Shown here: piece after piece, positions 954-2,142 of the stretch
Numbering within the stretch: the stretch's first letter is position 1
How the letters are laid out: every line of letters starts with the position of its first letter
NCBI GenBank assembly: GCA_025774805.1
Contig: JALGZR010000133.1
Span: forward strand, 1-7,469
DNA: 7,469 nucleotides
Direction of reading: 5' to 3'
Source of the DNA: a bacterium
GTDB taxonomy: Bacteria; ARS69
Translations under genes and position numbers: made by a program
Notes under the pieces: generated by a model
Database searches by the model: none
The model's input: only the letters and a program-made list of their open reading frames with translations
What the model was told of the DNA's origin: nothing

Positions 954-1128
954 GGCTGCATACCTCACCAGCCTCTGCTGCGGCAGCGGCAAGTCGCGCC
1001 TGGCGTCGTCGTTGCGGCGCTTCCGCCCTGCGACGAGGCTCCGGCCCCGCCTCCGGCGAAGGCCCTCCATCTCCTCGCCGGACACGACCATCCCCAGCCT
1101 CGCGACGAGCCTGGTGAGGAATGCAGCC
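954..1128. repeat. 175-base palindromic element with long arms and branched interior
   Basis: Arms 954-975 and 1107-1128 are 22 bases each and complementary except for two positions; the core is TGCATACCTCACCAG on the left and CTGGTGAGGAATGCA on the right. The pairing continues with GTCGCG (993-998) / CGCGAC (1101-1106), directly inside the right arm, and CTGG (1000-1003) / CCAG (1094-1097). The left bulge can close as GCTG-CGG-CAGC. Two further local hairpins fit inside: TCGTCG...CGACGA around a GGCG-CTTC-CGCC tip, and CCGGCGA...TCGCCGG at about 1053-1081. Such a nested arrangement looks like a structured RNA or a MITE-like insertion rather than chance pairing. Transcribed strand, boundaries and family are unknown. 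Confidence 0.6.
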
Positions 1129-1193: not shown

Positions 1194-2039
1194 ATGACCG
1201 GAGGAGATCTCCACCTGCACTCCGTCCGATCGGACGGAGAGTGGACCCCGGCCCGACTCGTGCGCGAGGCGAAGCGAGCCGGGCTGTCGACGGTCGCCCT
1301 GACCGACCACGATACGATCGCGGGGCTGGAGGAGGCTCAGGCGACCGGGGAGGAGCTCTGCGTCCGGGTGATCGTCGGCGTCGAGATCTCCACGTGGCGC
1401 GGCGTCGATCTGCACCTGCTGGCCTACGGATTCGATCCGACGTCGGCGGATCTCCGGGAGGTTCTGCGACGCTGCCGGGACGGGAGACGGACCCGGGCGG
1501 AGCGAATGGTCGCGGTTCTCGCCCGGCTCGGCGCGCCGATCACGATGGGGTCGGTGGAGCGCCACGCGGGCGAGGGGGCGATCGGGCGGCCCCACGTTGC
1601 GAAGGCTCTGGTCGAGGCCGGTCACGTGAGCACCATCCGGAAGGCTTTTCTGGAGTTCCTGGGCGAGGATCGTCCGGCCTATGTCGAGAAGGTCCGTCTC
1701 GACCCGGGCGAGACGATCGCCCGCGTGCAGGCGGCCGGAGGAGTCGCGGTCGCGGCGCATCCCGGGATCTACGGGGAGCCCGAGTCCTTCGATCCCCTCG
1801 TCGAGGCCGGGCTCGATGGAGTGGAGATCCTCCATCCGCTCCACGGCCGCAAGACCCGTGCGGCGTTCGACGCGTACGCGATCGCGAACGGCCTGGCCCG
1901 CACCGGCGGGTCGGACTTCCACGGGCCGCGGGGAACCACCCCCCCGATCGGCCGGATCGCGATCGAAGAGGCCTGGATCGAAGATCTGCGGGAGAGGATC
2001 GGGAGGCGTCGCGAGCAAGCCCGGACGATTCATGAATGA
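1194..2039 (+). CDS. PHP-domain phosphatase, RNase AM / nucleoside 3',5'-bisphosphate phosphatase type
   Basis: The 281-residue protein shows the full metal-binding set of the polymerase-and-histidinol-phosphatase fold: DLHLHS (H7, H9), SDG (14-15), TDHD (37-40), GVEIS with E64, an H74 region, GRPH (131-134), AHPG (H189) and GSDFHG (D241, H243). The order and spacing follow the E. coli YciV/TrpH (RNase AM) and Cv1693 family, including the 'ALVEAGHVSTIRKAF' block with a conserved aromatic V-segment after it. These are trinuclear-metal cytoplasmic enzymes that remove the 3' phosphate of nucleoside 3',5'-bisphosphates or trim 5' RNA ends. Length is normal. The start is supported by GGAGGGG seven bases upstream and by the motif beginning almost at once. 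The last residues (TIHE) and the stop are encoded within the inverted repeat at 2018-2095, an odd feature suggesting the 3' end was remodelled by that element. Family assignment is confident; exact substrate is not. Confidence 0.9.
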   Translation: MTGGDLHLHSVRSDGEWTPARLVREAKRAGLSTVALTDHDTIAGLEEAQATGEELCVRVIVGVEISTWRGVDLHLLAYGFDPTSADLREVLRRCRDGRRTRAERMVAVLARLGAPITMGSVERHAGEGAIGRPHVAKALVEAGHVSTIRKAFLEFLGEDRPAYVEKVRLDPGETIARVQAAGGVAVAAHPGIYGEPESFDPLVEAGLDGVEILHPLHGRKTRAAFDAYAIANGLARTGGSDFHGPRGTTPPIGRIAIEEAWIEDLRERIGRRREQARTIHE

Positions 2040-2095
2040 TCTGCCGCGATCGCGGTTCCGCAATCTCGCGACGATCTTCATGAATGGTCCGGGCT
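2018..2095. repeat. Inverted repeat overlapping the PHP-gene stop codon
   Basis: Arms 2018-2041 and 2073-2095 are inverted copies with one mismatch and one single-base gap. Each contains AGCCCGGAC next to ATTCATGAA, itself a palindrome (ATTCATGAAT at 2028-2037, TTCATGAA at 2077-2084). The 31-base interior holds a perfect 12-bp palindrome CCGCGATCGCGG (2044-2055). The A/T-rich TTCATGAA cores stand out from the surrounding G+C-rich DNA. There is no T tract, so it is not a textbook intrinsic terminator. It may be a dispersed intergenic repeat, a protein-binding site, or an mRNA 3'-end structure. Confidence 0.75.
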
Positions 2096-2142
2096 AAGCT
2101 CCGATCGTCGGCGGGCCGGCGAAGTCCGAAGGGAGGGATGAG

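Follow-up and report, generated by a model that had tools for sequence, protein, structure and literature searches.

A miniature mobile element with IS1380-type ends and a conserved, structured core that likely acts as RNA

The window, the whole analysed stretch of 7,469 nucleotides, holds a long palindrome between two divergent genes, a 164-aa open reading frame starting at 792 (minus strand) and a PHP gene (PF02811) starting at 1194 (plus strand). The question raised by this locus is which of the three readings in the initial annotation applies: a structured RNA, a leader of the PHP gene or a MITE-like insertion. The described arms, 954-975 and 1107-1128, were recovered as 22 nt with 91 % complementarity and a spacing of 131 nt. 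Folding was non-random on both strands, with -98.3 kcal/mol (z -5.95) for the plus strand and -109.6 kcal/mol (z -5.12) for the minus strand; none of 200 dinucleotide shuffles was as stable in either case. The palindrome is thus real, although its extent, given before as 954-1128, had to be corrected to 955-1127 by comparison with other copies. Several hundred MITEs with IS1380-type ends populate the source genome. The locus is one of them, set apart from ordinary MITEs by a conserved, structured and apparently end-independent core. The following features were assigned:

951-954, left 4-mer CTTG, probably decayed from the target consensus CTAG
955-1127, minus strand (oriented by the core), complete copy of the palindromic mobile element, 173 bp or 181 bp with the flanking 4-mers, from an alignment with 29 other copies
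955-971, plus strand, left terminal inverted repeat GCTGCATACCTCACCAG (consensus CCTGCATNTCTCACCAG)
970-1113, minus strand, conserved structured core, 81.8 bits with R1, a covariance model of the interior alone that was built from 16 sequences including this copy
975-983, minus strand, conserved lower-loop motif, 3' side, CCGCAGCAG
1026-1056, minus strand, apical hairpin CCGGAGGC..GTCGCAGGG, its helix 95.9 % paired over alignment A3
1098-1107, minus strand, conserved lower-loop motif, 5' side, CGTCGCGAGG
1111-1127, plus strand, right terminal inverted repeat CTGGTGAGGAATGCAGC
1128-1131, right 4-mer CTTC, probably decayed from the target consensus CTAG
2016-2097, minus strand, second, internally deleted core copy of 82 bp, family 2, matched by R1 at 2035-2079

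A search for copies in the source genome and its relatives, suggested together with the original description, returned hundreds of homologous copies in the source genome and ends in other genomes. With the consensus end CTAGCCTGCATATCTCACCAG (up to three mismatches), the source genome (5.1 Mb, 284 contigs) was found to contain the 21-bp terminal repeat CTAGCCTGCATNTCTCACCAG at 320 ends, 167 forward and 153 reverse; the reversed control pattern gave 0. BLAST with the element revealed at least 39 further copies of 87-92 % identity, from a scoring of 40 of 351 candidate places, window copy included, all with at least 87 % identity. In 1.09 Mb sampled from this genome, 80 paired elements and 45 single ends were observed, which extrapolates roughly to 370 elements for the whole genome. 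Paired elements were mostly 55-182 bp long: nearly half had 180-182 bp, the rest were mainly internally deleted, down to 55 bp. A crude gene caller placed 53 of 69 elements between genes, with 12 expected, and no orientation preference was found. The single ends were, judged by eye, a mix of left and right types, so a one-sided truncation as in retroelements was rejected. The element was unmatched in plasmid and phage collections, and its ends gave just marginal short matches there. One viral contig with the end pattern was probably a chance match, the partner end being absent within the retrieved stretch.

The candidate for the mobilising enzyme came from a Bryobacterales MAG (G053), in which hairpins coexist with two 97 % identical insertion sequences of 1732 and 1731 bp that encode an IS1380-family transposase and carry the same ends. 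The first reads CTAG CCTGCATTTCTCACCAG ... CTGGTGAGATATCCGGG CTAG, the second CTAA CCCGCATTTCTCACCAG ... CCGGG CTAA. The first is inserted within a hairpin copy, at a CTAG site that is uninterrupted in several other hairpins. Where a hairpin is nested in another hairpin, the uninterrupted copies have exactly one 4-mer at that site. Equal 4-mers flanked 13 of 53 hairpins in this MAG (6.5 expected, P 0.003), namely CTAG, TTAA, TTAG, CTAA and TTAT. The ends are classified as IS1380-type because of the insertion sequence with the same ends, the duplications and the nested insertion. In G043, a transposase of 60 % identity was accompanied by a matching right end. The suggestion of a MITE-like insertion is thus strongly supported: the short elements without coding capacity occur in hundreds of copies with common terminal inverted repeats, and G053 provides both the 4-bp duplications and an autonomous IS1380 element with the same ends. 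IS1380-family insertion sequences (PF13701/NF033539), which have served as prokaryotic outgroup in trees of piggyBac (PMC10813416), resemble the hairpins in their inverted ends and the 4-bp YTAR-type duplication, but the hairpins are gene-less and the insertion sequences lack the conserved core; R1 gave no match to the autonomous IS1380 copies. In the source genome, no intact IS1380 and no IS4/IS5-type DDE_Tnp_1 transposase were found, and the flanks of the copies were too decayed to show target duplications. The only IS1380 trace found there was a decayed C-terminal transposase fragment (L071, G000:C17:1747-2085) without matching ends beside it; hence the copies look like leftovers of past bursts. 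IS1380 was not detected in several copy-rich genomes (G047, G048). In G048, a 457-bp hairpin element (L263, G048:C51, 1531-1987) appears to enclose a different palindromic insert, with arms GCCCGGCCGGAGCCCCCAG ... CTGGGGGCTCCGGCCGGGC.

Named GTDB genomes, with lineage names as in the records, were scanned for exact occurrences of the end, which was located in MAGs of Deltaproteobacteria, Gammaproteobacteria, Alphaproteobacteria, Acidobacteria (Acidobacteriota), Eisenbacteria, Nitrospira, Verrucomicrobia and Gemmatimonadetes among the matches listed. Fourteen other genomes had 2 to 639 ends each, and all reversed controls were 0. Among four relatives from the source's own family, one had ends, in a single 55-bp copy. 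Six gammaproteobacterial copies (L134, L163, L170, L172, L192, L218) were about 248 bp long and folded into two arms, which share the terminal stem and of which one resembles the rod described below.

Copies of different phyla have unrelated stem sequences and the same fold, a rod consisting of a terminal stem, an internal loop CGTCGCGAGG/CCGCAGTAG, a long helix with small mismatches and an apical hairpin GGAGGCGTAC ... GTACGTCGAG. The proposed covariance model and test for compensatory changes yielded double changes well above shuffled controls, as expected for a new structured RNA. In a sequence-only alignment of 13 copies, unfitted to structure, both sides had changed in 54 of 81 pairs, with 162 double-change cells against 66 after shuffling and 49-63 with the partner slid. 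The 37 rows of alignment A3, which was fitted to the model, had 524 double-change cells against 205 shuffled. The initial annotation had described a branched fold of the plus strand; covariation favours instead a rod without branches, formed by the minus strand. One of the inner helices of the branched fold, 993-998/1101-1106, is private to the window copy: it uses GTCGCG, where other copies have GCCGCG, and its formation would engage the conserved CGTCGCGAG motif.

The core is found between other ends as well. In the source genome, a second family bounded by CCCGGACTATTCATGAA ends shares the core, and R1 matched the source genome, other hosts and 9 of 98 genomes surveyed. Cores with other ends or stems were detected in G002, G039, G061, G067, G103, G105 and G109, with best E values of 7e-18 to 1e-6 or better; a match in G001 was short and weak (E 4e-4). 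The ends elsewhere were CCCGCATTATTCATG in G039, TTTA GGGCAGTCACAAAAACC ... TTTA in G061 and AGAAGCGGTTTCATAAG in G103. The core thus appears able to change its ends. In G002, a genome of the source's family, each of the copies read (L332, L341, L348) had an unrelated outer stem, mostly with no visible duplication. No shared terminal repeat was seen in G002, G067 and G109, thus the mobility of the core is only putative in these genomes. Neither the window nor the core matched an Rfam family above the gathering threshold, only chance-level matches were obtained. With Rfam structured RNA families the core shares a covarying structure, conserved loops and a strand preference; it differs in the lack of a family match and in the mobility of its copies.

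Several observations suggest that selection acts on RNA. On the core-forward strand, which is the minus strand of the window, G.U exceeded A.C by 36:13 in the unfitted alignment and by 150:53 under a strand-symmetric filter, and this strand folded better in 34 of 34 sequences, with a mean difference of -14.2 kcal/mol against -6.5 kcal/mol for shuffled composition, all calculated over alignment rows that are not independent. A G.U pair in the apical helix was kept in 27 of 34 sequences. In DNA, G.T is also a milder mismatch than A.C, and the wobble excess alone is no proof of RNA. On the basis of the sequence comparisons, the core likely acts as RNA. The original reading as a structured RNA is therefore supported with modifications: a mobile element carries the conserved core, which lies on the minus strand.

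The most serious alternative is an ordinary MITE, whose hairpin would matter only as DNA, for example by arms that aid the pairing of the ends, with complementarity maintained by palindrome-templated repair and a core devoid of any RNA role. IS1380 ends and duplications would account for the spread, and the persistence of deletion derivatives down to 55 bp implies that the core is not strictly needed. Palindrome repair would, however, not keep unpaired motifs (GCGA, AGGCGTA, CGCAG) across phyla, and it leaves unexplained the strand-specific G.U excess with its kept G.U pair as well as the occurrence of one core between different ends. We consider this explanation rather unlikely. Far less probable is a structured RNA gene standing alone or a PHP 5' leader, despite the strong fold, the covariation and the position of the window copy, whose edge lies 63 bp before the PHP start. 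Hundreds of dispersed copies share their ends, an orientation bias to neighbours is absent and Rfam has no match; copies adjoin unrelated genes in either orientation, in low-copy genomes unrelated housekeeping genes without a conserved neighbour, and relative to the PHP gene the conserved strand is the antisense one. The leader interpretation of the initial annotation is accordingly not supported.

Two other transposase systems were considered. High copy number, a short palindrome, intergenic placement and an edge tetranucleotide recall REP/REPIN-type palindromes moved by a RAYT (Y1 tyrosine) transposase, which are likewise high-copy extragenic palindromes (PMC3733652, PMC3116915). However, the RAYT domain PF01797 was absent from the source genome, G053, G048 and G046, although G053 is the richest in copies, and the Y1 loci examined in other genomes had no convincing ends. 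A REP is itself a palindrome of 20-40 bp, whereas the ends of the much longer element pair only with each other; an origin of this type is highly improbable. An origin as a Tc1/IS630-type MITE, with TA duplicated inside CTAG as in RUP or Correia-like repeats, has in its favour that CTAG is a known target of IS630. Against it, PF13358 was not found in G000, G041, G043, G047, G048 and others, the insertion sequences at PF13358 loci were not bounded by the ends, and two findings are at variance with it, the IS1380 insertion sequence with the same ends and duplications of 4 bp (TTAT/TTAT, for example); hence we give this origin hardly any credence.

The element is very probably an IS1380-mobilised MITE with a core kept by selection on the folded strand, most likely as RNA. 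A resident or past IS1380 transposase would bind the inverted ends of about 17 bp and move the element into CTAG-like (YTAR) sites, creating the 4-bp duplication. The core of about 145 nt would fold on one strand, the minus strand in the window, as a long rod that is capped by an apical hairpin and contains conserved internal loops, and selection would act on this folded single strand, most likely as RNA. From sequence data we infer mobilisation in trans by IS1380, transcription, and an RNA that may aid the persistence or spread of the element. A more far-reaching proposal, which we offer only tentatively, is a selfish structured RNA of about 145 nt without relatives in Rfam; it would spread among distant phyla between the ends of available transposons (IS1380 groups and others) and promote or protect its own spread.

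Like other bacterial MITEs (Correia, RUP, ERIC and others), the element is short, gene-less, high in copy number, intergenic, framed by inverted repeats and accompanied by internally deleted forms; it differs in its interior, a covarying structure common across phyla and different ends. Described MITEs are, to our knowledge, confined to narrow host groups. In the non-subscription literature searched, we found no description of these ends, of IS1380 MITEs or of structured MITEs. MITE interiors are usually dismissed as filler without meaning; in this element conservation resides in the interior, whose shape outlasts changes in stem sequences and terminal repeats through many phyla and in hundreds of copies per genome. 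Whether a DNA-transposon derivative carries an RNA that serves the transposon or the host has thereby become a testable question, and the covariance model could annotate a widespread repeat.

The second palindrome of the window (2016-2097) has the other IS1380-type end (CCCGGACTATTCATGAA type) and is flanked by CAAG and CTAA. The PHP gene runs into this palindrome at its 3' end and has its stop codon (2037-2039) inside; a changed C terminus of the protein is thus a probable result of the insertion or of its decay. Further downstream, two adjacent short ferredoxin-like genes, 2143-2382 and 2520-2759, precede a thioredoxin-reductase-like gene; the second has no Pfam match and a Cys pattern similar to that of the first, which was assigned to Fer4_13.
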